A stretch of 64,000 nucleotides of DNA from Apophysomyces variabilis (Eukaryota; Mucoromycota; Mucoromycetes; Mucorales; Mucoraceae). Under the pieces are notes generated by a model. It saw nothing but the letters and a program-made list of their open reading frames with translations, did not search any database and was not told where the DNA came from. The position numbers and the translations under genes were made by a program. Positions 10,954 to 62,926 of this stretch are shown here, piece after piece. Position 1 is the first letter of the stretch. Each line of letters begins with the position of its first letter. The DNA is taken from assembly GCA_002749535.1 (NCBI GenBank), contig MZZL01000408.1, positions 604,693 to 668,692 on the forward strand, written 5' to 3'.

Positions 10954-13900
10954 ATGTCCATTGTGGTAAGACAATATTTTTCTCTTTTCACTGTTTAACG
11001 GCATTTATCTTAGGGATTTGACCTCGGCAGTTTTCGGTCGGTTGTCGCAGTTGTAAAAAGTGGAGGTGTACACATCGTCACGAACGAGTACTTAAACACG
11101 GCAATCCCGTAAGCACCCCTTTCGACTGTTTTATGTACCCATATTAAGGCAGTATCCTCATGGTAGTTCGCTGGTGGCATTTGGGTTCAATCAACGATAT
11201 ATTGGTGAGCAAGCAAAGACTTGGGAATTAGTCAATTTCGAGAACACGGTGGGAAACTTCAAGCGACTCGTTGGTAGATCATTTGCCGATCCGGAGATCC
11301 AAGAGTACGAGAAAGAGTTTATGACAGCTGAACTGATGGATGTAGACAACCAAGTAGGAGTCAAGGTAAATACGGATAAACAAAGGAAAGAAAAAATGAT
11401 GATTAACGCGACCAGCACGAACTTTGTTGCTTCAGGTAAATCATCTGGGGCAAATAGCAGAATTTTCCAGTGTACAGATCGTCGCCATGTACCTTAGTAT
11501 GCTAAAAGAAATGGCCGCAGCTGAGGTTCAGGCACCAGTGTCTGAATGCGTCATTGCGGTTCCTAAGTGGTTTACGGACATTCAGCGCCGAGCGGTCATG
11601 GATGCGGTAAAGATTGCGAAGCTGAACTGCTTTCGTTTGATAAATGATACAACTGCCGCAGCGTTGGATTATGGAATCACAAAGCTGGATCTTCGCAAAG
11701 ATGGTCAAAAAAATATCGCACTTATTGACTTTGGTCACTCCAGTTTCTCAGTGGCAGTTATATCTTTTACCAAAAATAAGCTCACTGTTCTTGGAACTGC
11801 CCATGACAGTCATCTTGGTGGGAGAAACTTCGATCAACTTCTTATGGAGATGTTGGCTGCCGAAATTAAATCAACGTACAATATTGACGTGTACAGCTGC
11901 AACAAGACCATAGCTCATCTTCGCATTCTCGCCGAGCGCTGTAAAAGAGACCTTTCCGCTGCACCTCGAGCATCGGTAAATATCAGTTCGATAATAGGAC
12001 AGAAGTACGAAGTGGTGTTGGAAATCGATCGTTGTAGTTTCGAGAAAAAGGTCGTCCATTTGCTTTCCCGTATTAAAGCTTCGATTTCAAAGGCTTTGGA
12101 ATGTTCTAAATTAGAAATAGAAAACATTGACTCTGTAGAGATTGTTGGAGGATGTGCTGGAATACCAGCAGTTAAACGTACTATTTCAGAATACTTCAAC
12201 AAAGAGCTCTCGGCTTTGCTAAATCAAAATGATACTGTTGCGCGCGGTGCAGCCCTTCAATGTGCAATCATATCCCCTTCCGTCGTGGCTCCCAATTTTC
12301 GTATTGACGACGTATGTAATTTTACTGTCAAGGTGAAATGGGACCCGACCCCAGAGGAAGAAGAGACGGAAATTACGGCGTTCAAGGCGAATGAACATTT
12401 TCCATCTACAAAGACGCTAACTTTTTATCGGCGACGGCCTTTCACAATTAAGATCGTTTACGATAATGACGATGGATTTGCTGCAATGATTAACCCGTGT
12501 ATTTGTCGGGTTGATATCAAAGATGTTCGCGACTTTAATGGCGGACCGGCAGAGATCAAGGTTAAAATCCGATTAACTATCCATGGCATGATAGCAGTTA
12601 GATCGGCCTGTACTGTTCAGAGAAAATTAGCAGAGGAAGAGATCATAACTAAGGGAGGAAAAAGGGAGCTGAGACTTGTAGAAAAGCTAAAGGCGGAAGA
12701 TCTTCCGCTGACGGTTACAAGCACTGCAATATCAAATGATCTAAAGGCCAAGTGTATCAAGCAGGAAGAGGAGATGATGCATAAGGACAAATTAGCAATG
12801 GCGAGAGACACTGCAAGGAACTGGTTACAGGAATATGGTTCCAATATGCGTGATAGCATCTTGCTTTCTTGTGCGGCTTACATGGATCCAGCAGTATGTC
12901 TTAGCAGTTAGACTTGCAGAATTTGCTAATGGAGTAATGGTTTATCTTAGGTTAAAGAGAAGCTTGTCGGAGGTATACAAGCACTTGCGGAGTGGGCTTA
13001 TGAAGGATCCAGCGAGGCAGCGAGGTTCGGGAATATCGGAAACGCGCCGTGTCACGAGTATCGCAAACGACCTGCGATTTACATACCAGACCAACAGACA
13101 CAAGCGGAAGTCCAGCTTGCGACCTCCGTCCGCCACGAAAAGTTCCGTAAAAGCACGTCCAATCATGAAGATAGTGTATCATTTCAAGCAGATGCATCAA
13201 TAATTAACAGCAAAAGTGGATTCTGTCATAATGCCTCCCGCTCGGGCTATTGTACTTCTGATGCAGATCCTACCAATGCGTGGAATAATAGAAAATTCGG
13301 CGGTTCCGTCAGAACTCGCTATTCTCTGATGTTTGTTCCTGATGATCCCGTACCATCTAAAGGCGTTAAGTTAGTAAAAACTCGTGCATGGCGCGTAGGA
13401 CGATCTCCAAGTAGCGTTTTTTTCGACATCACCTCCAGTGGTGGTCTAGCCAAAGAAGCTTTGAAAGCAATTTCAAAACAGTATCCCAAGATTATTGGCT
13501 GTACTACGCATCAAGACGGTCATAAACTGTTTGCAGAAATCAGCTTTGACGAGGAGGATACAGAATCCCGAAATAAGGCATGCAGCTTTGGATTTGAATA
13601 CAAAAATACACGTATCGTGGCTGTTGAAGCATTTCAACATGAGCCACAGATTGTTCGACTTAACCTACTTCATCTACCGTTTGTAACCACCGACAAACTA
13701 CGAAGTGAGCTTCGCGACAGTCTTTCCAGTTACGGAAGGATACTAGATATGGGGATATGGCGTGATGCTGACTTGGATCTGTTCATGGGGGAAGGATATG
13801 CAGTCCTTGATCGGTATCAGTTACCAGGAGAACCGCCTTTTAATGACCTCACCCATCAGATCTCATGTGTGCTGTGTACAGGTGTTTTCTATGCAACATG

Positions 13901-14159
13901 GAGCAACATGCCTATTCATTGTATGCTTTGCCATGTGCAGGGTCACAGCGTTAAAAACTGCTCTCGACGGCGTAATAATAGGATCTTTTGCTTTAATTGC
14001 GGCGAAAACGGACATACAGCAAACAAATGCCCAAACAACGGCCGCTTGTTAGATGCAGATAATACACAGCTTATCGACCTTAACGGAGTAGTAAAAAAGT
14101 TGGATTCAGTACATTTGAGCCAGCTTTCAGCGAACATGCCGTTTGAAAGTATTCTATGA
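10954..14159 (+). CDS. Hsp110/Sse1-like chaperone fused to Gag/ORF1-like double CCHC zinc-knuckle domain (copy A)
   Basis: Predicted 990-aa protein from five exons: 10954-10965, 11014-11108, 11167-11365, 11436-12893, 12951-14159. The 12-base first exon encodes MSIV and joins GFDLGS, the Hsp110 start. The nucleotide-binding domain follows (about 1-385): RYIGEQAKTWE, LINDTTAAALDYG, IDFGHSSFSVAVI and VGGCAGIPAVK, Hsp110-like rather than canonical Hsp70. A beta substrate-binding region (about 390-500) and helical segment (about 500-630) end in a Hsp110-type LAEWAYEG helix. After a polar linker the chain continues without a stop into a domain starting near residue 730 (VKTRAWRVGRSP), with an RRM-like SYGRILDMGI..GYAVLDR stretch. 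Two zinc knuckles follow: C-X2-C-X4-H-X4-C at about 912-925 and 935-948. No reverse transcriptase or endonuclease follows. Hsp110 is a nucleotide exchange factor; Gag/ORF1 domains bind nucleic acid. The function of the fusion is unknown. Confidence 0.85.
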
Positions 14160-14922
14160 ACAAAATCATGAGATTAACAGGATGCAGCACCGAAAAGCAA
14201 TAGTGACAATAAGAAGGCTCGGATGTCGATTAAGCAATAAAGGAAGTACAGCACGCTGGTCTCCAAGGCATTCTCACTTCGGGTTTATTGATTGTGGAAT
14301 TTAGATCTTGCTCTAATCCGTGTAGCTTGAGACTTTGAAGATTGACGGATAACTCGCATCCATGAGAATGTGTAGAAGCATCAAAGCTACAATCCACTCT
14401 AATACCAGCAAGCTCGGAGTTGCTCCAGCGACAAGTCTATGACAGGGTGAAAAGTAGTATCCAATTATCCTGTAGCTAATGTCGCTCGATGTGAGATATT
14501 TAGGTCATACCACGTATGCTGCGAACTTCTCCTTTCCTTTTTGGCTGCACCTTAAATAAACAAAAATGAGTTTGTCAAAGTAAGATGCATAACATGAAAT
14601 AGAGCAAGCTTAGTTTACTTTCAATGAAAGTCATCTTATATTCAAGGTTGTGTGAAACACCAAATCATGTAACAGTTTTTCTTTGTTTTGGTTACCTTGG
14701 CACCGCATCCAACGCCTTGCGCTTCTTGAATCTTATATGCTAACTAGAGGCTCGGCATCTGGAACAGGGACCCAGCAAACAAAACAAGGCTTTTTTTCTC
14801 TCATACATGGCCTTGTGACTTATGCAACATTACACAGGAACTCCGAATGGCGAAGAATACATGAGTAAGATTTTCACTTACTCCTCTTTCACTTGGGGCA
14901 AGTATCTTAATACCTTTTAACC
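14160..14922. other. intergenic spacer between the two fusion genes
   Basis: About 760 bp between the stop of copy A and the start of copy B. It contains no reverse transcriptase, endonuclease or long terminal repeat that would make the upstream Gag-like domain part of an intact retrotransposon. A 61-codon frame at 14683-14868 shows no known domain. Presumed to hold the copy A 3' end and copy B promoter. Confidence 0.5.
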
Positions 14923-17900
14923 ATGTTAGTTGTGGTAAACTTCTAAGAATCTACTCTTTTCCATATCAAACTTGTTTCTTTAGGGTTTTGATTTAGGGAA
15001 CTACCAGTCTATTGTCGCTGTAGCAAAAAATGGTAGCGCTAATATAATATGTAACGAATTTTCAGACCGTGCCACACCGTAAGAGTATCCCAATCAAGTG
15101 AGATCTGACCTAATATACCCCTGACCTTTATCTATATCAGATCTTTAGTATCGTTCGGTGCTGAAGAACGATACTTTGGGGCATCTGCAAAAAGCCGGGA
15201 AATAGATGCTTTCCAAGACACGGTCAATTGTATGAAGCGTCTCATAGGTCGAACGTTTAATGATCCTGAAGTCCGCGATTATGAAAAGCGCTTCTTCACA
15301 GCAAGATTTGCAGATGTAAATGGTAGAGTAGGAGTAAAGGTAATAGAATGACAAGCAAGAGGAACTATACTAAAATTCGTTTTTGGCTATATCCAGGTCA
15401 ATTACTCAAATCAAAAAGTCAGTTTCTCAGCAGTCCAGGTCTTTGCCATGCTGTTAAACAAATTGAAAGCAGTGGCTGCTGCACAACTAGACAGTCCAGT
15501 GGCAGATTGTGTTATAGCTATTCCAGGATGGTTCACTGACTGCCAGCGCCGCGCTGTCTTGGATGCCGCGAAGATCACAAAGTTGAACTGTCTGCGGTTA
15601 ATAAATGATACCACTGCTGCTGCGTTAGACTACGGAGTTTCTCAAGATTCGCTTCCGAAGAGTAAACCAAGGAACGTTGCGTTTGTGGACATCGGACACT
15701 CTAGCTATAACGTCGCAATTGTATCACTCGCCAAAGGCAAGCTTGATGTTCGTGGTACAGCTTATGACATACATTTCGGAGGGCGCGATTTCGACGAGGT
15801 CATTGTTGCAAGAGCGGCTGCTGAGATTAAGGAAAAGCTTAAAATCGATATTTTCAGTAACAAGGCAGCGTTGGCAAAGCTCAGGAATAGCGCTCGGCTT
15901 TGCAAGGAGGAACTTACCAGCCAGCTTCAGTCATCAGTGAAGGTTCCATCTATCATCAATGGAAAGGACTTCTCTATGATTGTTCATATTTGTGACTTTG
16001 AGCAATGGGCTGCACCATTGCTTAATCGAACCAATGATACACTCCAGAAGGCTATGAATAATGCAGGTTTAACGATAAAAGAAATCGAATCTGTAAGGTT
16101 AATGGGCGGGAGTACGCGGATTCCGGCGTTAAAAGCCGCCGTATCGAAATTTTTCGGCAAGAGAGTGGTCACCACGCATGATCAAGAAGAAAGCGTTGCG
16201 CGTGGTGCTGCTATACAGGGTGCTATGTTGCATCCTGGTTCAGGTTTTAGGCAATTCGAAGTCCTTGATGTCTCCAGCTATGTCATTAAGGCCACTTGGA
16301 ATGATAGGGCGGAGGATAAAAATGGGGTTGTAATATTTGGAACCAAGCGTCGTTTCCCTTGCAGCAAAGTCGTTCCACTTCGCCGTAACGAACCTTTTGA
16401 AATCGACGTTGTCTATGATCGACCAGAGGATCTTCCCAATGGCATAAAACCCTGGATTGGCCATTATACACTCAAGGAGCTAAAGCCAAGTAAAGGGGAA
16501 ATTATTCAAACTAGAGCTATATTCCGACTTAATGTCCATGGAATCATGTCCGGTGTATATGCACAGACAGTGGAACAAAAGGCAAAAGAAGGGGAGGGTG
16601 CATCCACAGATGGAAATAAGAAAACTTCAAAAAGCAAGAATGACACCAAGATCGTTGATCGACCTGTAACGGTGCGAAACACGTCGATCGCGAAGGAGCT
16701 GATAGCTAAATATACCGAAAGGGAAACCGAGATGGTTAATCGGGACACTTTGATTGCGGCAAGAAACACAGCCAAGAAATGGCTGCAAGAGTGTGGCTAT
16801 GCCACTCGAAACCAGATCGAAGGGCCACTCTCCCATTGTATAGATCCTACGGTAAGGAACTAACAATCCTGATTAAGAAGCTCTAACGCATCTTGTCTTT
16901 GTAGCTCAAGAGCCAGTATATGAGCAACCTCAACACGCTGATACAGTGGACGGATAGTAAGAATAATAAAATTCAAGCATCCTCGTACGTAGAAAAGCTC
17001 GAAACCCTGAAGAGCATGGCCACTCTTTTTGCTACTAGTGTTGGACAGGCAAACGAGATGGCAAACACAAATCATACGTCGCATAAAACTGTCGATCATA
17101 CTTCTGTAGCAGTAAGTAAGAACACCTCAGACAATCAGTATCGCACGGAAGATATGCAAGATATAATGGATTATTGCAACGATTCCATCGAGACATTATC
17201 GCGTTCGCCTGCACCTATCCACAAACTAACGTCGACCGATCCGGCTCCACCCCGGACGGATGCCAAGACTCTAAAAGACGGCTGCTCGTTAGTCTATACT
17301 TCGCCTGGAACACCCACACGTGAGAGCCATAAGACGGTTAAAACACGCGCATGGCGAACAGGTCGATCACCAGGCAGCGTGTTCTTTGACATTACTATGT
17401 TTGATAGTCAGACAAAGGACGTCTTAAAAGCAATCAAAACGCAATATCCAAATCTAATAGGAGGTAGAACAATCAAGCATGGACCCCAAATACTTGCTGA
17501 GATCAATTTCGACCTGTCTGACATCACCTCGAGAACACAATCATGCACTGCCGGTTTTGTATATAAAGAAATACGTATTCTGGCTGTCGAAGCTCTTCAA
17601 TTTGAACCTGACATCTTTCGAATCAGGCTTACGGATCTGCCATTTTTAAAACCTGATAAACTGAAGCAAGGAATCCAGCAGAGTCTCGCCCCCTATGGAA
17701 GAGTGTTGGACGTTGGCATCTCTCGTGATGCTGACTTTGGATTGTATATGGGTAATGGCTATGCTGTCCTTGATCGACGACCGGAAGAAAACGGTCCGCC
17801 GTTCGCAGAGATTAAACATAGCATTCAGTGGTGTGACTCTACTGACTGTTTCTACGCATTTTGGAGAGATATGCCCGTTCATTGCGTATTTTGCCATGAA

Positions 17901-18224
17901 CTTGGACATATTCGGGAGGATTGCCCCCGCAGAACAGTTAATAAGACTATTTGCTTCATCTGTGGTGAGAAGGGGCATAATCAAACGGACTGCTTATCAT
18001 TCAGCACCGGGACAAAAAACTCTAACTCGGATTCTTGCTCGGATTCGAAAGATACGGTGGAGACGCTTATCGACCTGGATACGCCCACAGCTGTTAGCGT
18101 GCCAGTACAAGTTCTAAAACCTAACTATGACGAATACGTGGCTAGTCAGACACCTTTCACCGGAGATCTGATTGAACTGGACGATGACGTTATAATGATT
18201 GATAACAACGACTCATTGCTTTAG
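14923..18224 (+). CDS. Hsp110/Sse1-like chaperone fused to Gag/ORF1-like double CCHC zinc-knuckle domain (copy B)
   Basis: Predicted 1026-aa paralogue of the upstream gene, with five exons: 14923-14934, 14984-15078, 15141-15339, 15397-16851, 16905-18224. The first three exons (12, 95 and 199 bases) match copy A in length and phase, and the fourth differs by only one codon. The Hsp110 part includes GFDLGNYQS, RLINDTTAAALDYG, VDIGHSSYNVAIV and LMGGSTRIPALK. It ends in the C-terminal helices, where the last intron sits at the same place as in copy A. The Gag-like domain starts near residue 731 (VKTRAWRTGRSPGS) and contains YGRVLDVGISRDAD and GYAVLDR. CCHC knuckles lie at about 914-927 (CVFCHELGHIREDC) and 937-950 (CFICGEKGHNQTDC). 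The acidic tail contains IDL and IELDDD motifs. Identity to copy A is roughly half across both domains by eye, so the pair is old and both frames have been kept open. No adjacent pol gene. Confidence 0.86.
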
Positions 18225-22865: not shown

Positions 22866-23339
22866 ACACTTGCTACCCAAATCATTAATTAATAATCAAC
22901 CTTCAACAAAACTCGTGCAATTCTGCGAGATGGTTAAATCATTTGGTCCATACAGTGTGCTGGGGAATCATGCGTTGAGCGGGTTCGGATTTCTTCCGCT
23001 TTAGCAAAGATAATTCTTCTGAAATGCAGTATGAACCTTTACTATCGAAATGTTATATCTAGTTATCAAAGTCGGATAAAGAATGATATGACTATGGGTC
23101 AAACAACTTTTTACATTATAGCTTGCTGATCAGACAGGGGAAACTACTTGATTACTCTGTTAGCAAATGCGCAACTTTCTGTGTCTCCTATACATCTCGA
23201 CTTGGGGAATCTCAGAAGCCAATGTACTAGCATACGGTTACATGCTTCGTTCTGCTGAGTACATGTGCAACCGATATAAACCATACAATGACTCTCACTT
23301 CTTGAGTAAAACCCCTCTCGCAACTTCTACTGTTGAACA

Positions 23340-25148
23340 ATGGCAAGCGACCGTCCTCTTATCGCAGGCATAACCCAAATGGCGCTCACTTCATCGGCTA
23401 ATGAGTTGCCACCTGCTGTCCTGCGCAACATTGCTGCTCGATTGTCAAGAATGACGCTACTCACAGTTATCACCGTTTGTCGCTCATGGAATGCTACACT
23501 TACATCTCAACTTTACAGCACTGTAGAAATACAGATGGAGGACCAACTGGAATTATTTGTTAACACCTTGACTACTATAGCCCCAGACAAGAGACTCGGC
23601 TTCCTTGTGTTCAACTTCTCCACGGATACCTTTCTAGACGAGGATACCGCCCATCTACTGCCACGGCTTCTCCCAAATGTCATTAGCGTGTCATGTCCAT
23701 ACAACCATGCTTTAGGTCGGGAAATTCTACCTATTTTGCAGGAATGGAAGCAACTTAGAAAGATATCGCGCTTGCGTTTGAAGGCGTTTACCACTCTGCC
23801 GACAGAGTTTCTTCGAAACAGACTCTCCGAATTAGAATTGGGCGGATCCACCATTGAAGCATGGATTGACACTGTGGCAGAAATCAAAACACTAGAGCGT
23901 CTATGCATAACAGTTCCCGACTACAGGACTTCCGAACAAATTGTCTGCGGAAACACAAGTCTTGACTCGCTAGAAAAGCTTCAAAACGGTCTTCCCCGGC
24001 TGCGGTCTTTCAGCTTGAAGATCTTTCAAATCAATGGAGATTTACCAGAACATATCGTACCGTGCAACACGTTACGCGAACTTGAATTCCAAACGATGTA
24101 CTGCAACGATGCTTGCGGTGAGTATTTTGCGCGAAAGTACCCGAAACTTGAAAAGTTAGCCATCGAGGGACAATGTCTCTGGATGGATATCGCTCCTCTA
24201 GCCATCTCGTTCCCTTTCCTTCGAGAGTTCGCCACAAGTGATCAAGCTCGCTACATCAAGTTTTTCGATGTACGTGCAATGGCTGGTCTAACTATCTCGC
24301 ATGTTAGTTTCTGCGACACTATTCCTTGGCAATTTGAGAAGCTCCAAGCTTTCCATACGGCACTCGCCAATGTCCAACTGGATTCATCGTGCATCGGAGT
24401 ACCCATCAAGGAAATAATAGAGCATTTAAAGGCTTGCGAAACATTGGCTACTTTGGACATGCGCTATCATCACCAAACTATGAATTTAGACTGGATCGTC
24501 AACGGGCAGCAAAACTTGAGAAACCTTACGCTTCGTTGCACGAAAGTTTCTGTCAGCAAGGAGGACACAACAACCATGTTTTCTCACAAATTGAAACGGC
24601 TCCATATGACAGCAAGTATTATAGAAGATGATGTCTATTTGTATCTATCGCGACAGTGTGTCCATCTGGAAAATCTTGAATCTTACTATAGAGAACCGAT
24701 TTCGCAGCAGCACTTGGTATATTATCCGTGGCCAGGGCTCCAATGTCTGGTGGTTATGTTCCATTTCAATGAGGCTTGTAATTTGACACGGATGAAGGAG
24801 GAGGAACGCATCAAAGCTGGGCATCCAATTGCTTACAAATCAGACGAAAATTATGAATCACTCGGACGCACACATCGGCTTCGCTACCGGTCCTCAGATG
24901 AGAACTTGAATGTTTCTCGGCAGAATCCGTCGAAACCAGAGGATATGATGAACGATATACAGAAGAAGGACGATTTGTCATCCACAATCCAGCTGCAAGG
25001 GGAGTCGGATGAACAAATACCATTACCTACAGAACCTATTATCCACGTTGTTTGTCATTATGTGGACCTCATTAATATAGGTCTTCGCAACAAATACTTC
25101 ATTAGCCGTGGCCACCTGCATCCAAAGCTATTAGGAAGCGATTACTGA
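23340..25148 (+). CDS. F-box/leucine-rich-repeat protein (left copy)
   Basis: Intronless 602-aa ORF. An F-box-like motif lies near residues 18-60 (NELPPAVLRNIAARLSRM, then VITVCRSWNATLTSQLYS). A long series of degenerate leucine-rich repeats follows to about residue 480 (for example LSELELGGSTIEAW, LRSFSLKIFQING, LRELEFQTM, LATLDMRYHH, LKRLHMTAS). The last 120 residues are polar. F-box proteins recruit substrates to SCF ubiquitin ligases through Skp1, and LRRs usually bind the substrate; the target here is unknown. Such genes are numerous in Mucorales. The start at 23340 is the first ATG of the frame and precedes the F-box by the usual short leader. An identical copy lies in the other arm. 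Confidence 0.85.
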   Translation: MASDRPLIAGITQMALTSSANELPPAVLRNIAARLSRMTLLTVITVCRSWNATLTSQLYSTVEIQMEDQLELFVNTLTTIAPDKRLGFLVFNFSTDTFLDEDTAHLLPRLLPNVISVSCPYNHALGREILPILQEWKQLRKISRLRLKAFTTLPTEFLRNRLSELELGGSTIEAWIDTVAEIKTLERLCITVPDYRTSEQIVCGNTSLDSLEKLQNGLPRLRSFSLKIFQINGDLPEHIVPCNTLRELEFQTMYCNDACGEYFARKYPKLEKLAIEGQCLWMDIAPLAISFPFLREFATSDQARYIKFFDVRAMAGLTISHVSFCDTIPWQFEKLQAFHTALANVQLDSSCIGVPIKEIIEHLKACETLATLDMRYHHQTMNLDWIVNGQQNLRNLTLRCTKVSVSKEDTTTMFSHKLKRLHMTASIIEDDVYLYLSRQCVHLENLESYYREPISQQHLVYYPWPGLQCLVVMFHFNEACNLTRMKEEERIKAGHPIAYKSDENYESLGRTHRLRYRSSDENLNVSRQNPSKPEDMMNDIQKKDDLSSTIQLQGESDEQIPLPTEPIIHVVCHYVDLINIGLRNKYFISRGHLHPKLLGSDY

Positions 25149-27848
25149 ATAGATTAGCAGTAAACAGTGTTTTCTTGCGGTTTACTTTTCTATCTTTTTC
25201 TCTGAGCACGTTTCGTCGCCTATCATGCAATTTAACGCACTTTGTCACATACACAACTTAGAATTTTTTCAAATGCAAAAGAAAAAAAACAGGACATTTT
25301 AAAGTGTATTTGCCTTCCAACGTATGTAACAAATAGCGAATGAAATAACTAAAGAAAGCGGAGCGGTTATTCGCACCAAGTACGTCGTTATATTTTAGGT
25401 AACTTTAACACTTTGATTATATGTTTTCTTAATCCAAACCACTCTGACCAGCTCAATCCACATGAGCAGACACGCGCCCCTTCTTTTATAAAGTTAGCAT
25501 ATTAAAATATTGCACTATAAATCACCATTTATCAAAACAATTGACTGCCGTTGCTGTCATGCGCGAAGTAGTTCTGTTGTCCGGACTTCTTACCAACAAC
25601 AACGGTAAAACACTTTAGGCTCCAGAGCGAGCAATGGAGGAATCAACCTTCCAAACAAGTACTTTTGTTTCGCTATTTCCTCCTCAGTACGTACAGTCAT
25701 AGGGATCTGTTTCTACGGTGGTCTCATACCGTGTAAAACATTGATCTTTGAAGGCATGCGAACAATTCATGCAATCTGATATTGTTTGTACTCAGGAACG
25801 CACGATCCAGCATTTGGAAACACCCGCATGGTGTGGCCTCACTGATGCCAGAGCTGATACTGCTGCACGGCATTTTCATCTCCTGCAACAATTTCTGAAG
25901 AAGTTGCTCGAGTACTTTACCGACCATGTTAATTTTGAACCTGTAACTGTCGATTTCTGCAGACAATTTCCAGGGCGCGTTTCGGCGTAGCTTCTACAAA
26001 ATGTTTTGCACGTATCCCCTCTTTGTTATGGGCGTAATTCATGCGAGAAGATTCGCATCACTCAGCTGATCTGCCCATCGGCGCCAGTCCTTTCTTAATA
26101 CAATGTAAACACAGCGTTATGATGGCCTCTGATATACTTGTCTAGGGCAGATAAGCTTTTCCCAATACGGGGATGGTTGAAACTACCGGTAAACGTTGTT
26201 AATTGGAAGATGTACCAAAGATAAATAAATGAATAGCCTGTGCGATTTCCATACTTTGCAAATTTTCCAATTCTCTCATTAACTTGCTTGTGTGGACTAT
26301 ACGCCTACTAAGACAGCCGCTTGTAGTAAAAACCCAATCCGATTGTCTGGGGAAGACCGTATGAATACTTACCGAAACCATTCCGAGCTTTTATAGAAAA
26401 ACGTGGAAATGCATCAAGATTTGTTTATTTGCGATGATTGAGATTCATTTGCAAATGTTGTAACGTATTATGTGGCACCAGCGCTTATGCTTTGTGTCTG
26501 GAAAATGTACTTGGCAGACCATCAAGTACAAGTCATGGGCCATCATTTAACCGATAAAAGTGGAGATGAACGGTACCAGGTCCTCATCACAAGCGAGATG
26601 GCTGGGTTATGGCACGTTGCCAAACGAGACGCTCAATGGTACAATATATTCAACGAATTACAATTCATAGTATAAACATCTCCAGCTAGCTGCGCATACA
26701 CTCACTTTGATATGCATCGTAGGGCTTTTGTGTATTACAACACCAAAAGAAAAATCGACTTTTCTGTTTAGGAGTCGATTCGGCCGTAAGGCAACGAACG
26801 CTGAAAACGGCCAGTTAATCATTTGTAGTCAACGGATGCTACCGTTGAACCTTCCTGTGCGCCACCCTGTGGATCTGCCCATGACCCAGCAATGGAATTT
26901 ACGCCGTCTCCTAACTCCACTAGCTCCCCTCTATCGTTTTCGTCTGTCTCCTCACCTTGGAAAAGTAAGACTAGAATGTTGCACAATAATTCTTCTTTTT
27001 CTTAATCTCAATTTGATCTAGGAGGTTACGAGAAAGCTATAATTTGCTCGAAGCGGAGATCGAGAAGACTCAATAACGATTACGGCATTTCCTAACGAGA
27101 GCGTGCTGTATTGGAAGAACTCCTAGTTGATCCCTTAGAGGGCTACAATCGATCGGGTCAATCTGGGCTGGGCCATAACTGGGTTGGGCTTCAAGTCCTA
27201 AACATATATAACATTGCTCTTCCCACACATTATATATTATCACAAGAAATTGTACATGTCATGCTGCCTGTACCAATTATATGCCTTATCCAGGGTAGAA
27301 GCTTTTTGTCTCTGGTACCTGACTACAAATGACGTTTATTATTCAATCGGGCTGCTTAGAAAGTTATCACCGGAATTGATTTTTAGCAAAAGAAACCATG
27401 ACAGGACTGTTGTCAACTTTTACAGCTTGTTAGTTGGGCAATATATTATTACTATAACCAAGGGTAATGCTCCTCCTAAACACGCTTCCTATCAAGTAAA
27501 ATCATGGCCATCTTTACATGACTCAGAAATGCTTCGAAATACATATCAAATGTCTCGGGTAAAATGATTACAGTATCTGTTACTTGCATGTTGATGTAAC
27601 GTTAGCCAAAGTTCTATTGTACAATGCCATGTTTACAGCTTAGCTTACACAGCATCTCAGATTAAGATCTTTTCTAGATACGGTTGGAAGTAACGCAATA
27701 CAAGGGCTTTGCGGGCCGGGTATTTCCAGACAGGGTTGCACCATCATCATGTCATGTCCTACTCGAAACATTCAACTGACTGACATTTGCTGTTCTTTAA
27801 ATATAAAATGCAAACCAGCAACTGTAAGTGTTTTCTATTCGGTTAAAC
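25149..27848. other. left arm region with only unassigned short ORFs
   Basis: About 2.7 kb downstream of the F-box gene. Short frames (25748-25990 plus, overlapped by 25724-25966 minus; 26472-26675 plus; 26707-27021 plus; 27111-27332 plus) have no recognised domain and may be exons of unknown genes or chance. All recur exactly in the right arm, so conservation between arms is not evidence of coding here. Confidence 0.35.
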
Positions 27849-28052
27849 ATGATATCCTTTTCAATCGTCTTCTTATTTGCAATCCTTTCCCTTGCCTTGG
27901 CCGAGTCACTTTATCGCATCGGTTATACAGGACGGGAATATTACTATGCACCTCTTGGAGTTAAAGACATGTTATCACCAATAGGATCGTATACAAAAAA
28001 TGACCCGGATGTTGTGAACGAGCTATACTACCGTGAGCAAGACCCTACATAA
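27849..28052 (+). CDS. small secreted peptide, uncharacterised (left copy)
   Basis: A 67-aa ORF starting with a clear signal peptide (MISFSIVFLFAILSLALA) and a Tyr-rich mature part containing RIGYTGREYYYAP and ELYYREQD. It has no cysteines. Downstream, in another frame, 28065-28197 is also open with Tyr/Phe-rich sequence (FFPYALDFYSNYS, YTFYANDTKFYPRQ) ending at a TAG. The real product may therefore be longer through an intron or may be frameshifted; no clean GT-AG pair joins the two frames. I do not recognise the family. Export from the cell is inferred from the signal peptide only. Confidence 0.45.
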   Translation: MISFSIVFLFAILSLALAESLYRIGYTGREYYYAPLGVKDMLSPIGSYTKNDPDVVNELYYREQDPT

Positions 28053-28266
28053 AAGATCTCCGAAGCCCTTTGCAAAATCGTATCCCTTAGACGTTCAACG
28101 TATCAAGTTCTTCCCGTATGCTCTAGACTTCTATAGCAACTACAGCATTGTTTACACCTTCTACGCGAACGACACCAAGTTCTATCCCAGACAGTAGAAT
28201 CAACGAACAGAAATTTACACTCTTCTAGTAAACACAAAAATGACATTGGACATACACTAGAATATA

Positions 28267-28353
28267 CACTGTGGGAAATTTTTTGTCTGCTTCGTTGGGA
28301 TTCGTCGTTAGCTAAAGGAGATTCGACGAAGCTGACGAAAAATTCCTACAGTG
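28267..28353. mobile_element. 87-bp palindromic MITE-like element (left copy)
   Basis: Short hairpin-forming element bounded by inverted repeats. The left end reads CACTGTGGGAAATTTTTTGT. The right end, read on the minus strand, begins CACTGTAGGAATTTTTCGTC, and both continue into GCTTCGT. The ends resemble those of the CACTA-type MITE at 8882-9087 (CACTATGGGAAATG). No target duplication is evident (ata on the left, ccc on the right), so the boundaries are less certain. It could also act as a transcript-end hairpin for the adjacent secreted-peptide ORF. Confidence 0.6.
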
Positions 28354-28585
28354 CCCATAATTGATCTGTGTCGAGCAGATATACGATATTTTCGTCCTGT
28401 GCTCATTTGAGACATTAAATAAACTTAATTCCATCTGTGTATACGAGATTAAGCTATAGTAGCTGCGTAGAAACCTATGCTCCGTAGCAGACTGGTGGAT
28501 CGTAAGGGTAGAATAACTGCAAATTTATTATTTTCTTTTTCCTCGCAAAAGACACAGTACTTTGGCTGATCCAGCATTGATGAAA

Positions 28586-29242
28586 TTATCCTCGAGCAAA
28601 TTTTTGGAGGCCAGCTAGATCACCATTCCAAACGTCTTGATCACCTGGTTGACCACCGCGATCTGCGTATTGCCAGAACGAGTGGTACGACCACCCTGCA
28701 GGAAGAGGATTAGGTGTGCTACCCCAGCTAGCAAGCCACAACGGATTCTCGCTACCAAAGCTTCCATCATTCCCAGTACATTCCTTCCACCAGCTCGTAG
28801 TTATATAGATAACAGGAGGGCGACCAGTTCTAGCTTTGTACATGTTTGAAAAATCGTGAATCCAATTAAGCATTTGAGCTTGAGTTAGACCACTGCAGCC
28901 AGCCTCGAGGTCAATAGCGCCAGGAAGGGTTCTACCATCCGCAGACCATTACCCTCCATGAGCAAGGAAAAAATTGGCCTGCGCAGCACCGCTTGAATCA
29001 GCTGGACGGGCAAAATGGTACCCTCCTCGAATTAGGCCAACATTCGTAGCGCCAGTGTATTGGCTGTCAAACAGAGGGTTTATGTAATCGGTGCTCTCAG
29101 TGGCCTTGATATAGGCAAACTGAATTCCGCCAGCTTTTACAGAATTCCAGTTTATGGAGGGTTGATGCGAGGATACATCTATGCCAGTTGGGCCTGCACA
29201 ATGTGCAACAGAAGCACATAAAAGAAGGGCAGCTATCTTCAT
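28586..29242 (-). pseudogene. GH25 lysozyme with in-frame premature stop (left copy)
   Basis: Minus-strand frame of 219 codons, interrupted once by TAA at 28951-28949. Signal peptide MKIAALLLCASVAHCA, then the GH25 (Ch-type lysozyme) start GPTGIDVSSHQPSINW, FAYIKATEST and GGYHFARP. After the stop, in the same frame, come LPGAIDLEAGC (the conserved Asp/Glu pair), PPVIYITTSWWKECTG and SYHSFWQYADRGG. GH25 enzymes cleave the beta-1,4 bond between N-acetylmuramic acid and N-acetylglucosamine in bacterial peptidoglycan. The stop falls between HGG and WSADG, where relatives usually have glycine, and removes both catalytic carboxylates from the first product. No plausible intron removes it (the only GT-AG pair is 21 bases). 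Readthrough or a base error are the alternatives. The right arm carries the same stop. Confidence 0.85.
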
Positions 29243-30412
29243 AATCGTAAGGGAAATATGATGGCTACTGATGTGTGATAGATCTGCAAATCCGTTAATT
29301 GCAATTCGCAGAAATCAGTAAAATCTTTACAGTTGTACAAAGAAGCAATGCGTGAATTGCCGAGAGTTGTCTGTCAAAGTTTTTAAAAATATAGATGTGA
29401 GATTGATGAACTAGGCTAACTCATCAATGGCATAAAAATCAAACTAATAAGCTGAATGCTCATTATTTACCTTGCTTTTGTGTTGAAGAGCACTATGAAG
29501 GTTGAGGACGTGAGAATTCGTTTTGTATGGAAATAGAACTATGATAAATTTGAATATTTGAAGCTCAGTGAGAAGAAAGCACGCTATATGAGATGCGACT
29601 CTAAGCTGACAACAATGACAAGGGTTGCTAGGCGTATAGGACATCACATTAAAGGAAGAGAATGTTTCTCACCTTGATTTGCTTTTCCAAACTGCCGAGG
29701 AAGGCGAAAGTGTAAGAAGAACACGGTAGACCCTTTTTATATGTGAAAGGCTATGCACCTTGGATTTGTAATGTATAGACAAGCCATGGTACGCAGGTTA
29801 ACGACTGGACTATGAGGGATCAAATGCAGGATAGCATCAGGAATACAGGACGTGCAACGGTAAGACAATGCAAAGAATTTGCAGAGGTAGTGTTTGTACC
29901 CCTTGCTTCTTTCTTGCAACCGAACCCAAACAAACACTAAACGGACAACAGCAATAGCAACTGAATGTTAATTCTCAACATCAAACCTTTTACTTATATG
30001 TAAGGGTAATCGACTGTACCAATTTCTTATAAAGGAGTTAATAGTTTTTAGTGTTGGTTATCTCTTTCTCTTCGACAAACTAAGACTCTTTCTTCATTTA
30101 ACTAATCAGTTAATGTTAGAAATGGTTTTGGTTCCTCCGTTCCTCCGTGAAAGAAAGAAGGTCGGTTCTGGTTCCAGTCCAGGTTTCGATTCCTCGGTTC
30201 TGTCGTTGAACCGTATGCAGGACTACAGTAACCATAAGCTGACGGACACATGGCTGGCCCGCGACAGCTGACTGTTCACTGATAGTAGACTGTGATCCTT
30301 TGATAAACAAGAAAAGCCTCAAGAACAAAGTAAATACTACATGCATTGAGAGCCCCGGTCCATTTATTAAGTCTTTTGTTTTGTACGATGGGAACGAATC
30401 ATGCATGTAAGC
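29243..30412. other. inner left-arm region without supported gene
   Basis: About 1.2 kb. A stretch near 30116-30200 is rich in GGTTC/GGTTCC and its variants. A 50-bp segment at 29969-30018 recurs in direct orientation just after the N, at 30414-30464. Minus-strand frames at 29444-29647, 29737-29937 and 30116-30406 have no domain and look non-coding. Confidence 0.4.
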
Positions 30413-33368: not shown

Positions 33369-34538
33369 GCTTACATGCATGATTCGTTCCCATCGTACAA
33401 AACAAAAGACTTAATAAATGGACCGGGGCTCTCAATGCATGTAGTATTTACTTTGTTCTTGAGGCTTTTCTTGTTTATCAAAGGATCACAGTCTACTATC
33501 AGTGAACAGTCAGCTGTCGCGGGCCAGCCATGTGTCCGTCAGCTTATGGTTACTGTAGTCCTGCATACGGTTCAACGACAGAACCGAGGAATCGAAACCT
33601 GGACTGGAACCAGAACCGACCTTCTTTCTTTCACGGAGGAACGGAGGAACCAAAACCATTTCTAACATTAACTGATTAGTTAAATGAAGAAAGAGTCTTA
33701 GTTTGTCGAAGAGAAAGAGATAACCAACACTAAAAACTATTAACTCCTTTATAAGAAATTGGTACAGTCGATTACCCTTACATATAAGTAAAAGGTTTGA
33801 TGTTGAGAATTAACATTCAGTTGCTATTGCTGTTGTCCGTTTAGTGTTTGTTTGGGTTCGGTTGCAAGAAAGAAGCAAGGGGTACAAACACTACCTCTGC
33901 AAATTCTTTGCATTGTCTTACCGTTGCACGTCCTGTATTCCTGATGCTATCCTGCATTTGATCCCTCATAGTCCAGTCGTTAACCTGCGTACCATGGCTT
34001 GTCTATACATTACAAATCCAAGGTGCATAGCCTTTCACATATAAAAAGGGTCTACCGTGTTCTTCTTACACTTTCGCCTTCCTCGGCAGTTTGGAAAAGC
34101 AAATCAAGGTGAGAAACATTCTCTTCCTTTAATGTGATGTCCTATACGCCTAGCAACCCTTGTCATTGTTGTCAGCTTAGAGTCGCATCTCATATAGCGT
34201 GCTTTCTTCTCACTGAGCTTCAAATATTCAAATTTATCATAGTTCTATTTCCATACAAAACGAATTCTCACGTCCTCAACCTTCATAGTGCTCTTCAACA
34301 CAAAAGCAAGGTAAATAATGAGCATTCAGCTTATTAGTTTGATTTTTATGCCATTGATGAGTTAGCCTAGTTCATCAATCTCACATCTATATTTTTAAAA
34401 ACTTTGACAGACAACTCTCGGCAATTCACGCATTGCTTCTTTGTACAACTGTAAAGATTTTACTGATTTCTGCGAATTGCAATTAACGGATTTGCAGATC
34501 TATCACACATCAGTAGCCATCATATTTCCCTTACGATT

Positions 34539-35195
34539 ATGAAGATAGCTGCCCTTCTTTTATGTGCTTCTGTTGCACATTGTGCAGGCCCAACTGGCAT
34601 AGATGTATCCTCGCATCAACCCTCCATAAACTGGAATTCTGTAAAAGCTGGCGGAATTCAGTTTGCCTATATCAAGGCCACTGAGAGCACCGATTACATA
34701 AACCCTCTGTTTGACAGCCAATACACTGGCGCTACGAATGTTGGCCTAATTCGAGGAGGGTACCATTTTGCCCGTCCAGCTGATTCAAGCGGTGCTGCGC
34801 AGGCCAATTTTTTCCTTGCTCATGGAGGGTAATGGTCTGCGGATGGTAGAACCCTTCCTGGCGCTATTGACCTCGAGGCTGGCTGCAGTGGTCTAACTCA
34901 AGCTCAAATGCTTAATTGGATTCACGATTTTTCAAACATGTACAAAGCTAGAACTGGTCGCCCTCCTGTTATCTATATAACTACGAGCTGGTGGAAGGAA
35001 TGTACTGGGAATGATGGAAGCTTTGGTAGCGAGAATCCGTTGTGGCTTGCTAGCTGGGGTAGCACACCTAATCCTCTTCCTGCAGGGTGGTCGTACCACT
35101 CGTTCTGGCAATACGCAGATCGCGGTGGTCAACCAGGTGATCAAGACGTTTGGAATGGTGATCTAGCTGGCCTCCAAAAATTTGCTCGAGGATAA
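34539..35195 (+). pseudogene. GH25 lysozyme with in-frame premature stop (right copy)
   Basis: Inverted copy of the left-arm lysozyme gene with the same 219-codon frame and the same TAA, here at 34830-34832, between HGG and WSADG. The signal peptide, the GIDVSSHQ start, the GAIDLEAG catalytic segment and FWQYADRGG are all present. Because both arms share the stop, the mutation either predates the duplication or was spread by gene conversion, unless the arms are one locus assembled twice. Confidence 0.85.
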
Positions 35196-35427
35196 TTTCA
35201 TCAATGCTGGATCAGCCAAAGTACTGTGTCTTTTGCGAGGAAAAAGAAAATAATAAATTTGCAGTTATTCTACCCTTACGATCCACCAGTCTGCTACGGA
35301 GCATAGGTTTCTACGCAGCTACTATAGCTTAATCTCGTATACACAGATGGAATTAAGTTTATTTAATGTCTCAAATGAGCACAGGACGAAAATATCGTAT
35401 ATCTGCTCGACACAGATCAATTATGGG

Positions 35428-35514
35428 CACTGTAGGAATTTTTCGTCAGCTTCGTCGAATCTCCTTTAGCTAACGACGAATCCCAACGAAGCAGACAAAA
35501 AATTTCCCACAGTG
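35428..35514. mobile_element. 87-bp palindromic MITE-like element (right copy)
   Basis: Mirror copy of the left-arm element at 28267-28353, with inverted ends CACTGTAGGAATTTTTCGTC and (other strand) CACTGTGGGAAATTTTTTGT. It lies between the lysozyme pseudogene and the small secreted-peptide ORF, as in the left arm. Confidence 0.6.
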
Positions 35515-35728
35515 TATATTCTAGTGTATGTCCAATGTCATTTTTGTGTTTACTAGAAGAGTGTAAATTTCTGTTCGTTGATTCTACTGTCTGGGATAGA
35601 ACTTGGTGTCGTTCGCGTAGAAGGTGTAAACAATGCTGTAGTTGCTATAGAAGTCTAGAGCATACGGGAAGAACTTGATACGTTGAACGTCTAAGGGATA
35701 CGATTTTGCAAAGGGCTTCGGAGATCTT

Positions 35729-35932
35729 TTATGTAGGGTCTTGCTCACGGTAGTATAGCTCGTTCACAACATCCGGGTCATTTTTTGTATACGATCCTAT
35801 TGGTGATAACATGTCTTTAACTCCAAGAGGTGCATAGTAATATTCCCGTCCTGTATAACCGATGCGATAAAGTGACTCGGCCAAGGCAAGGGAAAGGATT
35901 GCAAATAAGAAGACGATTGAAAAGGATATCAT
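35729..35932 (-). CDS. small secreted peptide, uncharacterised (right copy)
   Basis: Identical inverted copy of the 67-aa left-arm ORF, with signal peptide MISFSIVFLFAILSLALA and a Tyr-rich mature part. The same possible frame break or continuation follows downstream (35584-35716). Family not recognised. Confidence 0.45.
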   Translation of the reverse strand: MISFSIVFLFAILSLALAESLYRIGYTGREYYYAPLGVKDMLSPIGSYTKNDPDVVNELYYREQDPT

Positions 35933-38632
35933 GTTTAACCGAATAGAAAACACTTACAGTTGCTGGTTTGCATTTTATATTTAAAGAACAGCAAATGTCA
36001 GTCAGTTGAATGTTTCGAGTAGGACATGACATGATGATGGTGCAACCCTGTCTGGAAATACCCGGCCCGCAAAGCCCTTGTATTGCGTTACTTCCAACCG
36101 TATCTAGAAAAGATCTTAATCTGAGATGCTGTGTAAGCTAAGCTGTAAACATGGCATTGTACAATAGAACTTTGGCTAACGTTACATCAACATGCAAGTA
36201 ACAGATACTGTAATCATTTTACCCGAGACATTTGATATGTATTTCGAAGCATTTCTGAGTCATGTAAAGATGGCCATGATTTTACTTGATAGGAAGCGTG
36301 TTTAGGAGGAGCATTACCCTTGGTTATAGTAATAATATATTGCCCAACTAACAAGCTGTAAAAGTTGACAACAGTCCTGTCATGGTTTCTTTTGCTAAAA
36401 ATCAATTCCGGTGATAACTTTCTAAGCAGCCCGATTGAATAATAAACGTCATTTGTAGTCAGGTACCAGAGACAAAAAGCTTCTACCCTGGATAAGGCAT
36501 ATAATTGGTACAGGCAGCATGACATGTACAATTTCTTGTGATAATATATAATGTGTGGGAAGAGCAATGTTATATATGTTTAGGACTTGAAGCCCAACCC
36601 AGTTATGGCCCAGCCCAGATTGACCCGATCGATTGTAGCCCTCTAAGGGATCAACTAGGAGTTCTTCCAATACAGCACGCTCTCGTTAGGAAATGCCGTA
36701 ATCGTTATTGAGTCTTCTCGATCTCCGCTTCGAGCAAATTATAGCTTTCTCGTAACCTCCTAGATCAAATTGAGATTAAGAAAAAGAAGAATTATTGTGC
36801 AACATTCTAGTCTTACTTTTCCAAGGTGAGGAGACAGACGAAAACGATAGAGGGGAGCTAGTGGAGTTAGGAGACGGCGTAAATTCCATTGCTGGGTCAT
36901 GGGCAGATCCACAGGGTGGCGCACAGGAAGGTTCAACGGTAGCATCCGTTGACTACAAATGATTAACTGGCCGTTTTCAGCGTTCGTTGCCTTACGGCCG
37001 AATCGACTCCTAAACAGAAAAGTCGATTTTTCTTTTGGTGTTGTAATACACAAAAGCCCTACGATGCATATCAAAGTGAGTGTATGCGCAGCTAGCTGGA
37101 GATGTTTATACTATGAATTGTAATTCGTTGAATATATTGTACCATTGAGCGTCTCGTTTGGCAACGTGCCATAACCCAGCCATCTCGCTTGTGATGAGGA
37201 CCTGGTACCGTTCATCTCCACTTTTATCGGTTAAATGATGGCCCATGACTTGTACTTGATGGTCTGCCAAGTACATTTTCCAGACACAAAGCATAAGCGC
37301 TGGTGCCACATAATACGTTACAACATTTGCAAATGAATCTCAATCATCGCAAATAAACAAATCTTGATGCATTTCCACGTTTTTCTATAAAAGCTCGGAA
37401 TGGTTTCGGTAAGTATTCATACGGTCTTCCCCAGACAATCGGATTGGGTTTTTACTACAAGCGGCTGTCTTAGTAGGCGTATAGTCCACACAAGCAAGTT
37501 AATGAGAGAATTGGAAAATTTGCAAAGTATGGAAATCGCACAGGCTATTCATTTATTTATCTTTGGTACATCTTCCAATTAACAACGTTTACCGGTAGTT
37601 TCAACCATCCCCGTATTGGGAAAAGCTTATCTGCCCTAGACAAGTATATCAGAGGCCATCATAACGCTGTGTTTACATTGTATTAAGAAAGGACTGGCGC
37701 CGATGGGCAGATCAGCTGAGTGATGCGAATCTTCTCGCATGAATTACGCCCATAACAAAGAGGGGATACGTGCAAAACATTTTGTAGAAGCTACGCCGAA
37801 ACGCGCCCTGGAAATTGTCTGCAGAAATCGACAGTTACAGGTTCAAAATTAACATGGTCGGTAAAGTACTCGAGCAACTTCTTCAGAAATTGTTGCAGGA
37901 GATGAAAATGCCGTGCAGCAGTATCAGCTCTGGCATCAGTGAGGCCACACCATGCGGGTGTTTCCAAATGCTGGATCGTGCGTTCCTGAGTACAAACAAT
38001 ATCAGATTGCATGAATTGTTCGCATGCCTTCAAAGATCAATGTTTTACACGGTATGAGACCACCGTAGAAACAGATCCCTATGACTGTACGTACTGAGGA
38101 GGAAATAGCGAAACAAAAGTACTTGTTTGGAAGGTTGATTCCTCCATTGCTCGCTCTGGAGCCTAAAGTGTTTTACCGTTGTTGTTGGTAAGAAGTCCGG
38201 ACAACAGAACTACTTCGCGCATGACAGCAACGGCAGTCAATTGTTTTGATAAATGGTGATTTATAGTGCAATATTTTAATATGCTAACTTTATAAAAGAA
38301 GGGGCGCGTGTCTGCTCATGTGGATTGAGCTGGTCAGAGTGGTTTGGATTAAGAAAACATATAATCAAAGTGTTAAAGTTACCTAAAATATAACGACGTA
38401 CTTGGTGCGAATAACCGCTCCGCTTTCTTTAGTTATTTCATTCGCTATTTGTTACATACGTTGGAAGGCAAATACACTTTAAAATGTCCTGTTTTTTTTC
38501 TTTTGCATTTGAAAAAATTCTAAGTTGTGTATGTGACAAAGTGCGTTAAATTGCATGATAGGCGACGAAACGTGCTCAGAGAAAAAGATAGAAAAGTAAA
38601 CCGCAAGAAAACACTGTTTACTGCTAATCTAT
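35933..38632. other. right arm region with only unassigned short ORFs
   Basis: Mirror image of 25149-27848, with the same short frames of unknown meaning on opposite strands and no additional features. No gene can be supported. Confidence 0.35.
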
Positions 38633-40441: not shown

Positions 40442-40643
40442 TGTTCAACAGTAGAAGTTGCGAGAGGGGTTTTACTCAAGAAGTGAGAGTCATTGTATGG
40501 TTTATATCGGTTGCACATGTACTCAGCAGAACGAAGCATGTAACCGTATGCTAGTACATTGGCTTCTGAGATTCCCCAAGTCGAATGTATAGGAGACACA
40601 GAAAGTTGCGCATTTGCTAACGGAGTAATCAAGTAGTTTACAG

Positions 40644-56800: not shown

Positions 56801-58293
56801 TCTTTTAAGTTTTGTTTGGCTTGGCTTGACTTGGCTTTTTATTTTCGTTTGCTGCACATAACTTTAAACGTAACTAAAATCTATTGTTCTATTTTAGTGT
56901 TTGAATATTTCATTTCCCATCATCAGACAAAAGCCTTCGAATCCATTTTTGGTGGTGTGACCTGTCTTCCAGGATGCTTCTGTATGTATCGTATCAAGGC
57001 ACCCAAGGGTCCGAATGGGTATTGGGTCCCCATCCTTGCCAATCCGGATATTGTAGAACATTATTCTGAAAATGTCATTGACACGTTACATAAGAAGAAC
57101 CTGCTTCTTCTTGGCGAAGATCGTTATCTTTCAACACTCATGCTGCGCACTTTCCCCAACCGAAAAATGGTTTTTGTACCACAGGCAGTGTAAGTGTTTA
57201 TCTTGTTCTTTCTCGTTTTAAAGCACTTGGAAACTAAACATCATGCTCTGTTGTATGAAATAATAGGTGCAAAACGGTGGTTCCTGACACCTTCCCGGTC
57301 CTTTTGTCTCAACGTCGACGATGGATTAATTCAACAATTCACAACTTGATGGAACTCTTGTTTGTGCATGACCTTTGTGGAACATTTTGCTTTTCGATGC
57401 AATTTGTCGTCTTTATGGAACTCGTTGGTACATTAGCTTTGCCGGCGGCCATTTCATTTACGCTCTATTTGATCATTCTTGCCATCATGGGAAAACCTGC
57501 TGTGATACCTTTGATCTTACTGGCCTTGATTCTTGGTTTACCGGCTGTGCTGATTGTCATGACGAGTCGAAAGATCGTGTATGTCGGCTGGATGATTGTA
57601 TATCTCTTCAGTTTACCGATATGGAATTTTGTTCTACCCACGTATGCCTATTGGCATTTTGATGACTTTTCTTGGGGCGACACTCGCAAGGTGGAAGGCA
57701 GTGAAAAGGATGAGGGTCACGGTGATAAAGAAGGTGAATTCGACAGTAGTCAGATCACAATGAAGAAGTGGAGTGAATATGAAAAAGAACGGCGAATCAA
57801 ACAGGCCATCGCCAACAACATGCCCATCCCTCGATTTATAGAGCGACCTCTCAGCGTTGACATTTTCCGGGAATCTCAACTCTTCAAACGGCATAGTCAG
57901 CCAGCTTCAGACGGATCGAATGAGAGCGAGGTGCCATTGACCCAGATGGAATTTTCGCCCGCAGGGGCTGACAAACGGCTAAGGGCGGAAGCATCCGGCA
58001 CCGGTAGCTTTATGGCAGATCGCACGCCCATTCAATTGGTAGACAAAGAAATGCCCATGACAACTCTCCGTCAATGTACATATAATCATAACGAGGAGGA
58101 GGGAGAGGAGGAAAAAGTCGTTGAAGAATTACAAACCATGGAACGAAATGAACAATGGCATGAAGAACATCATGTTACTGCTTCTACCCAATATCATACC
58201 CTTACCCGACTGGATTCACCCAACGACACAACGTTACCATTGTCCCCTCCTCCACCTCCTCCTCATGGTCATGCAGATGCTAATGAACAGTAA
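53816..58293 (+). CDS. chitin synthase, Chs3-like (class IV, division 2)
   Basis: A 1312-aa membrane glycosyltransferase from six exons: 53816-54323, 54399-54981, 55089-55682, 55836-56770, 56898-57189, 57267-58293. The cytoplasmic N-terminus (1-160) is basic and acidic. Next come a membrane span ([18 protein letters not shown]), a large lumenal segment with Asn-glycosylation sites, and a second span cluster ([20 protein letters not shown]). The GT2 catalytic domain begins near [20 protein letters not shown] and includes DADTK (829-833), [20 protein letters not shown] (947-952) and QRRRW (986-990). C-terminal spans follow, then SWGDTRKV and a polar acidic tail. No myosin motor is present, which separates it from classes V and VII. 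It polymerises UDP-GlcNAc into chitin at the plasma membrane; in Mucorales part of it becomes chitosan. Start at 53816 is the first ATG after the polypyrimidine leader. Confidence 0.93.

Positions 58294-62895: not shown

Positions 62896-62926
<31 letters not shown>

Follow-up and report, generated by a model that had tools for sequence, protein, structure and literature searches.

The window (the whole stretch of 64,000 nucleotides that was analysed) contains two neighbouring genes, HG1 and HG2, in each of which an Hsp110 chaperone runs in frame into the ORF1 protein of a LINE retrotransposon. The two genes and their parts are located as follows:

10954..14159, + strand: HG1, Hsp110-LINE ORF1 fusion gene (990 aa; open spliced frame)
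10966-11013, 11109-11166, 11366-11435 and 12894-12950, + strand: HG1 introns (GT-AG; register matching HG2 and the canonical Hsp110 gene)
10954..13310, + strand: HG1 chaperone part with linker, residues 1-708 (Pfam HSP70 at 3-603; Sse1 is the nearest solved structure)
12951..14159, + strand: HG1 last exon, containing the join (unbroken frame)
13380..13919, + strand: two RRM-like folds of HG1, residues 732-911 (predicted model, VIA matches, hhalign to LINE ORF1)
13920..14030, + strand: two CCHC knuckles of HG1, residues 912-948 (motif scan; Pfam zf-CCHC above cut-off)
14923..18224, + strand: HG2, Hsp110-LINE ORF1 fusion gene (1026 aa; open spliced frame)
14935-14983, 15079-15140, 15340-15396 and 16852-16904, + strand: HG2 introns (GT-AG)
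14923..17273, + strand: HG2 chaperone part with linker, residues 1-710 (Pfam HSP70 at 3-629; Sse1 is the nearest solved structure)
16905..18224, + strand: HG2 last exon, containing the join (unbroken frame; Hsp110 homology at the exon start)
17343..17882, + strand: two RRM-like folds of HG2, residues 734-913 (51% identity to the HG1 domain; part of the alignment behind the model)
17883..17993, + strand: two CCHC knuckles of HG2, residues 914-950 (motif scan; Pfam zf-CCHC under cut-off)

Both spliced frames run from ATG to stop without interruption and cross the join inside an exon, which agrees with the open frame reported in a preliminary description of the locus. The Hsp110/Sse1-type N-terminus that this description had assigned to the two adjacent genes was confirmed by the Pfam HSP70 match (E-values of 6.5e-128 for HG1 and 7.6e-133 for HG2) and by searches against solved structures, in which the Sse1/Hsp110 chains 2qxl, 3c7n and 3d2e headed the lists at E-values of about 1e-107 and 1e-110, above the Hsp70 chains. 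Five GT-AG introns at equivalent positions had also been proposed; the positions do correspond, but there are four introns in each gene rather than five. They lie at codons 5, 36, 103 and 589 in HG1 and at codons 5, 36, 103 and 588 in HG2 (phases 0, 2, 0 and 0 in both), and the two that had been singled out (12894-12950 and 16852-16904) were given correct coordinates. The conserved ORF1 block begins at residue 732 in HG1 and 734 in HG2 (alignable from near 709 and 711, respectively), in line with the domain start of about residue 730 noted earlier, and the motif scan found the CCHC knuckles in the intervals previously given for them, at residues 912-925 and 935-948 of HG1 and 914-927 and 937-950 of HG2. 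Pfam zf-CCHC exceeded its cut-off of 20.8 bits in HG1 (22.9 bits; E-value of 8.4e-05) and stayed under it in HG2 (13.8 bits; E-value of 0.065). Chance is excluded as the source of the fusion architecture of the two genes. Upstream of HG1 there are two overlapping heat-shock element matches (8/9), a number reached in 4 of 200 shuffles, and upstream of HG2 there is one (36 of 200 shuffles); upstream of the genome's canonical Hsp110 gene, no 8/9 match was found.

This canonical gene is located on contig C59 (L007) of the 38.7-Mb genome (126 contigs), and its spliced product comprises 764 residues, 756 of which are identical to the Hsp110 of A. ossiformis (P0005), which points to a close relative of A. 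ossiformis within Apophysomyces as the source of the window. Its introns fall at codons 5, 36, 103 and 589 with phases 0, 2, 0 and 0, exactly as in HG1 and with a difference of one codon from HG2, and this marks the fusion genes as copies of the canonical gene that arose by duplication at the DNA level. A retrogene origin was rejected because all four canonical introns are retained. In five of the six fusions tested, Hsp110 homology continues beyond the last intron as far as canonical residue ∼675-681, and for each of these five, tested apart, 0 of 500 shuffles matched the last-exon alignment (in HG2, residues 602-679 align to canonical residues 603-681, and no shuffle of 500 was as good). The single miss was HG1, for which 153 of 500 shuffles were as good. 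The join is thus placed within the last exon, 3' of intron 4, and ∼84 C-terminal residues of canonical Hsp110 are replaced in the fusions. A mis-joining of neighbouring genes was rejected, since the join is intra-exonic and common to the relatives.

The added part had been described as Gag/ORF1-like, and the ORF1 half of that label is the one favoured here: it is the ORF1 of a type I LINE (RRM-RRM-CCHC-CCHC, with an RRM directly preceding a CCHC knuckle) rather than an LTR Gag. This typing follows from its homology to the ORF1 of a LINE resident in the same genome (hhalign probability of 99.6%, E-value of 5.5e-25), in which the frame after ORF1 contains an endonuclease domain (E-value of 2.1e-10) and an RVT_1 match at C101:64833-65531. 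The resident ORF1 is 26-29% identical to the fused domain, and the HG1 and HG2 domains are 51% identical to each other. In the predicted model of HG1 residues 725-955, the alignment for which included HG2, the region forms tandem RRM-like folds with medium confidence (pLDDT of 73, pTM of 0.50; 34-57 in the knuckles), and its best VIA matches are two-RRM proteins. An LTR Gag source is not favoured because the region preceding the knuckles models as a tandem RRM and matches LINE ORF1; Pfam Gag families gave no match in HG1 or HG2 at E-values up to 1. No plus-strand frame of at least 230 aa that could represent an ORF2 is present from HG2 to 23 kb or between HG1 and HG2, and of 306 RVT_1 candidates, the 150 that were scored included no match inside the 64-kb window. 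Beyond the fusions, a search with the resident LINE ORF1 detected one open related LINE and decayed pieces at two other places.

Five more fusion proteins were found in four other Apophysomyces genomes, which brings the total to seven in five genomes. They are P0004 from A. ossiformis (1026 aa), P0002 from BC1034 (1030 aa), P0001 and P0092 from BC1015 (957 and 980 aa), and P0077 from BC1021 (955 aa), in which the last cysteine of knuckle 2 is lost; all were deposited under the name 'adenyl-nucleotide exchange factor sse1'. The entries of both BC1015 proteins give 108,169 bases as the longest contig, a hint that they may form a tandem pair as well. Among the best 120 of 412 proteins, six were longer than 850 aa, and the C-terminal tails of these six were read: five are the fusions just named, and the sixth, P0074, is an Acaulospora protein with a Sec62 domain; the other named Mucorales entries among the best 120 measured 673-791 aa. 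When HG1 residues 740-960 served as the query, 2 proteins were recovered from 677 candidates, and P0004, P0077 and P0092, which the search with 412 proteins detected, were overlooked, so absence from the results of this query proves little. No copy of HG1 was seen in A. ossiformis with these searches, one of which overlooked known fusions. A comparison of P0003 with viral contigs gave two pattern matches and no relative.

When 28 chaperone parts are placed in a tree, all seven fusions group together (100/98), and within this group HG1 pairs with P0001 (100/100), HG2 is joined by P0004 and then by P0002 (100/99), and P0092 and P0077 are weakly placed. These pairings imply that the HG1/HG2 paralogue split predates the separation of the lineage of the window from BC1015 and BC1034, and the fusion family extends beyond the tandem pair and predates it. 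A topology in which five fusions join the Apophysomyces canonical gene was not rejected (p-AU of 0.155). In the ORF1 tree, the outgroup branches of which exceed three changes per site, the fusions are united in only 8% of 200 bootstrap replicates; as this tree does not recover a single fusion clade, it is from the chaperone part alone that we infer a single capture of ORF1.

The three modules of the fusion proteins differ in their rate of change. Identity is higher in the ORF1 part than over residues 1-600 for 20 of 21 pairs (the pairs are non-independent), and the single exception is P0001/P0077. P0004 has the same length as the HG2 model and is identical to it at 982 of 1026 positions (572/600 in the chaperone part, 122/133 in the linker and 288/293 in ORF1), which corresponds to 28, 11 and 5 changes, respectively (Fisher p of 0.036 for ORF1 versus chaperone and 0.002 for linker versus ORF1). 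The canonical Hsp110 proteins of the same two genomes differ at 8 of 764 residues, so change has been faster in the fusions than in the parent gene. Between HG1 and HG2, with synonymous sites saturated, pN and pS are 0.320 and 0.764 in ORF1, 0.371 and 0.806 in the chaperone part, and 0.583 and 0.785 in the linker, and linker identity is 19-37% in every pair except HG2/A. ossiformis. Judged by these comparisons, the ORF1 part is the slowest-evolving and most constrained module of the protein, and purifying selection has maintained the fusions in related genomes. The preliminary description had named absence from related genomes together with neutral evolution of the added part as the outcome that would speak against it; what was found is five fusions in four other genomes and a constrained ORF1. 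The same data bear on the view that the ORF1 part is a functionless read-through or a mis-joined exon. Such passive baggage or prediction artefact would be compatible with the poorly conserved linker, the damaged knuckle 2 of the BC1021 fusion, the fast evolution of the chaperone part and gene models that come from DNA and deposited proteins alone, but it is difficult to reconcile with a join inside a single exon, seven open copies in five genomes and amino-acid constraint on ORF1. We therefore consider this explanation highly improbable, and the added domain does not look like passive baggage.

Conserved columns of the chaperone part were defined on 112 canonical rows (fusions and rows shorter than 700 or longer than 860 aa were dropped) and tested in six fusions, with P0004 left out as a near-copy of HG2. 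Ten positions of the Hsp110/fusion alignment were assigned from Hsp70 motifs and are taken by us to form the ATP site. Eight of them are conserved columns, with the residue retained in 47 of 48 cells; the exception is K69, which falls in a stretch that is absent from the predicted protein P0001; the remaining two, D8 and G10, are present in all seven fusions. Erosion of the chaperone part is otherwise general, as between 108 and 125 of the 173 columns conserved in Hsp110 are retained in each of the six fusions, with the fewest kept in the helical region (68/126 cells vs 510/714 in the nucleotide-binding domain). Changes at A280, N281, N572 and E575 of Sse1 are reported to impair the interaction with Hsp70 (PMC5440654, PMC4664246). 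Each of these residues is kept in 110 to 112 of the 112 canonical rows, whereas the six fusions keep 8 of 24 cells and none of the seven fusions has all four. The residues had been inspected in the fusions before they were tested, and the test is thus post hoc: 365 of 20,000 random draws from all conserved columns were as low, and 1,027 of 20,000 draws from region-matched conserved columns, which is marginal. At six further conserved sites from the published list of Sse1 mutants, the six fusions retain 27 of 36 cells. At the level of sequence, the erosion of the Hsp70 contact is a hint within general erosion. Because this result is weak, it is conceivable that the fusions are working Hsp70 nucleotide-exchange factors with an RNA address, which would serve Hsp70 at ribonucleoprotein (RNP) granules or ribosomes. 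They retain the overall Hsp110 fold and the ATP-site residues, and some contact residues persist (N281, N572 and E575 in the BC1034 fusion; A280 and N572 in HG1 and BC1015a). However, no fusion combines all four contact residues, the helical region is the least kept, and the C-terminal end of canonical Hsp110 is replaced; we regard continued service as an exchange factor as unlikely.

The capture of a transposon ORF1 by a chaperone gene, followed by duplication and retention, had been proposed beforehand and is borne out by the shared introns, the homology to LINE ORF1 and the constraint. That the genes are fused, derived in part from LINE ORF1, common to several genomes and constrained is directly supported, and we consider it very probable that a DNA-level duplicate of HSP110 gained a LINE type I ORF1, was then duplicated and was kept by purifying selection. 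In this course of events, an HSP110 gene would have been duplicated at the DNA level in the Apophysomyces lineage, with its four introns included; the duplicate would have lost its ∼84 last codons and gained nearly a whole LINE type I ORF1 in frame in the last exon; and the fused gene would have been duplicated afterwards (in tandem in the window) and retained in several lineages.

The mechanism that we propose for the fusion proteins, to which we give a little less than an even chance, is that of a holding chaperone with an Hsp110 fold that is tethered to RNA or RNP and has a weakened or changed link to Hsp70. The ORF1-derived part would bind RNA or RNP and tether the ATP-binding chaperone there, so that unfolded clients would be held at that site. 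The canonical Hsp70 contact may be weakened or altered, in which case the fusion would no longer be a general Hsp70 nucleotide-exchange factor, and general exchange would be left to the slowly evolving canonical Hsp110. The RNA-granule or anti-transposon role put forward in the preliminary description is a conjecture. RNA binding is suggested here by the predicted fold and by homology only. The net charge of the RRM part (between -6 and 0 across the seven fusions, i.e. near neutral to acidic) does not speak for it; LINE ORF1 proteins have similar net charges (-2 and -1), and HG2 and the resident LINE ORF1 have a similar acidic tail. A broader form of the proposal, a transposon-derived, RNA-addressed Hsp110 family that would act on RNP (LINE particles or RNA granules) largely without Hsp70, is one that we regard as doubtful.

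The fusions could also act as retrotransposon restriction factors, in which the fused ORF1 would co-assemble with ORF1p from active LINEs or bind LINE RNA and the chaperone would block or redirect the particle. The LINE ORF1 nature of the added domain, the several fast-evolving paralogues and the small number of related LINE copies in the genome (one open, with decayed pieces at two other places) agree with this, as does the reported paucity of transposable elements in Apophysomyces genomes (PMC5604411), and L1TD1, a domesticated L1 ORF1 gene, has been proposed to act in this way (PMC4161310). Yet low transposon content is a correlation that can have many causes, the resident LINE ORF1 is just 26-29% identical to the fused domain, and in an arms race ORF1 should be the fastest module rather than the slowest. 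Restriction fits poorly with a slow ORF1 because the comparable L1TD1 is reported to be under positive selection (PMC4161310), and we consider it quite unlikely. If the proposed tethered holding chaperone is real, the fusions would represent an evolved chaperone that finds its clients via RNA, as well as an Hsp110 fold that has been uncoupled from Hsp70 in nature, and an RNA-addressed chaperone would connect the control of RNA or transposons with protein quality control. Several copies make up the family, which has so far been seen in a single genus, Apophysomyces, and both kinds of parent, a canonical Hsp110 and a LINE related to the source, persist in the genome, so stepwise tracing of capture, duplication and divergence is possible.

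No Hsp110-LINE ORF1 fusion was found in our literature searches, for which broader queries were covered by their top-ranked matches. The matches that mention Hsp110 were a survey of Leishmania mRNA-binding proteins and a review of heat stress in maize. Host genes derived from transposons are already known (EKA in fungi and L1TD1 in mammals), and the joining of a chaperone to LINE ORF1, as read from these sequences, was not met among them. The fusions share with Hsp110/Sse1 the nucleotide-binding, beta and helical regions, the ATP-site residues and the canonical fungal gene structure, but they carry LINE ORF1 in place of the last ∼84 residues, their Hsp70-contact residues are eroded and their branches are long. 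Type I LINE ORF1 proteins are described as having an RRM upstream of a CCHC knuckle (PMC4120745). The fusions resemble them in the RRM-RRM-CCHC-CCHC order, the profile match to the resident LINE ORF1 and the acidic tail of HG2, but their ORF1 part is not followed by an endonuclease or reverse transcriptase frame and lies at the 3' end of a host gene with introns. The EKA genes of powdery mildew, reported as truncated LINE copies with >1350 homologues and proposed to be effectors, are likewise fungal genes from part of a LINE ORF1, but no fusion to a host protein is mentioned as far as that account goes (PMC4641428). L1TD1 is, according to the report on it, also a host gene that was derived from LINE ORF1 and long retained; in contrast to the fusions described here, it is made of two type II L1 ORF1 regions, is without a chaperone and is under positive selection (PMC4161310).

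The genome that holds the window (G000) also contains a LINE (L011) with an open ORF1 of 485 codons and a reverse transcriptase that lies within a 1327-aa frame. This was the sole such copy matched by the search with its ORF1, which otherwise returned pieces on contigs C91 and C87.

Features of the window and the LINE locus
G000:C101, about 62.2-65.5 kb: LINE L011, open ORF1 and reverse transcriptase frame
Window 23197-30412 and 33369-40584: inverted-repeat arms, 7,216 bases, 100% complementary
Window 55831-58293: chitin synthase frame, match to family (PF03142)
Window 60552-62999: P-type cation ATPase frame, match to family

Within the window, the arms of the inverted repeat are separated by a spacer of 2,956 bases, and each carries an F-box frame of 603 aa; Pfam gives the same result for the two frames. 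The repeat may have arisen through a recent palindromic duplication or through gene conversion, or it may be an artefact of the assembly. The chitin synthase and ATPase frames look like ordinary genes.

In the Acaulospora colombiana protein P0074 (1021 aa), Hsp110 is followed in one record by a Sec62-type membrane domain (PF03839), an extension that may be another type of tail on Hsp110 or may come from a prediction in which two genes were merged.

Two deposited Hsp110-LINE ORF1 fusion proteins have anomalies. In P0077 (Apophysomyces sp. BC1021), the last cysteine of the second CCHC knuckle is replaced by F, and there is a gap in the helical region where N572 of yeast Sse1, one of four residues reported to be needed for Hsp70 binding, would fall. 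The predicted protein P0001 (Apophysomyces sp. BC1015) lacks, perhaps through a mis-predicted intron, the stretch around the ATP-site residue K69 of Sse1, which is present in the other fusions.
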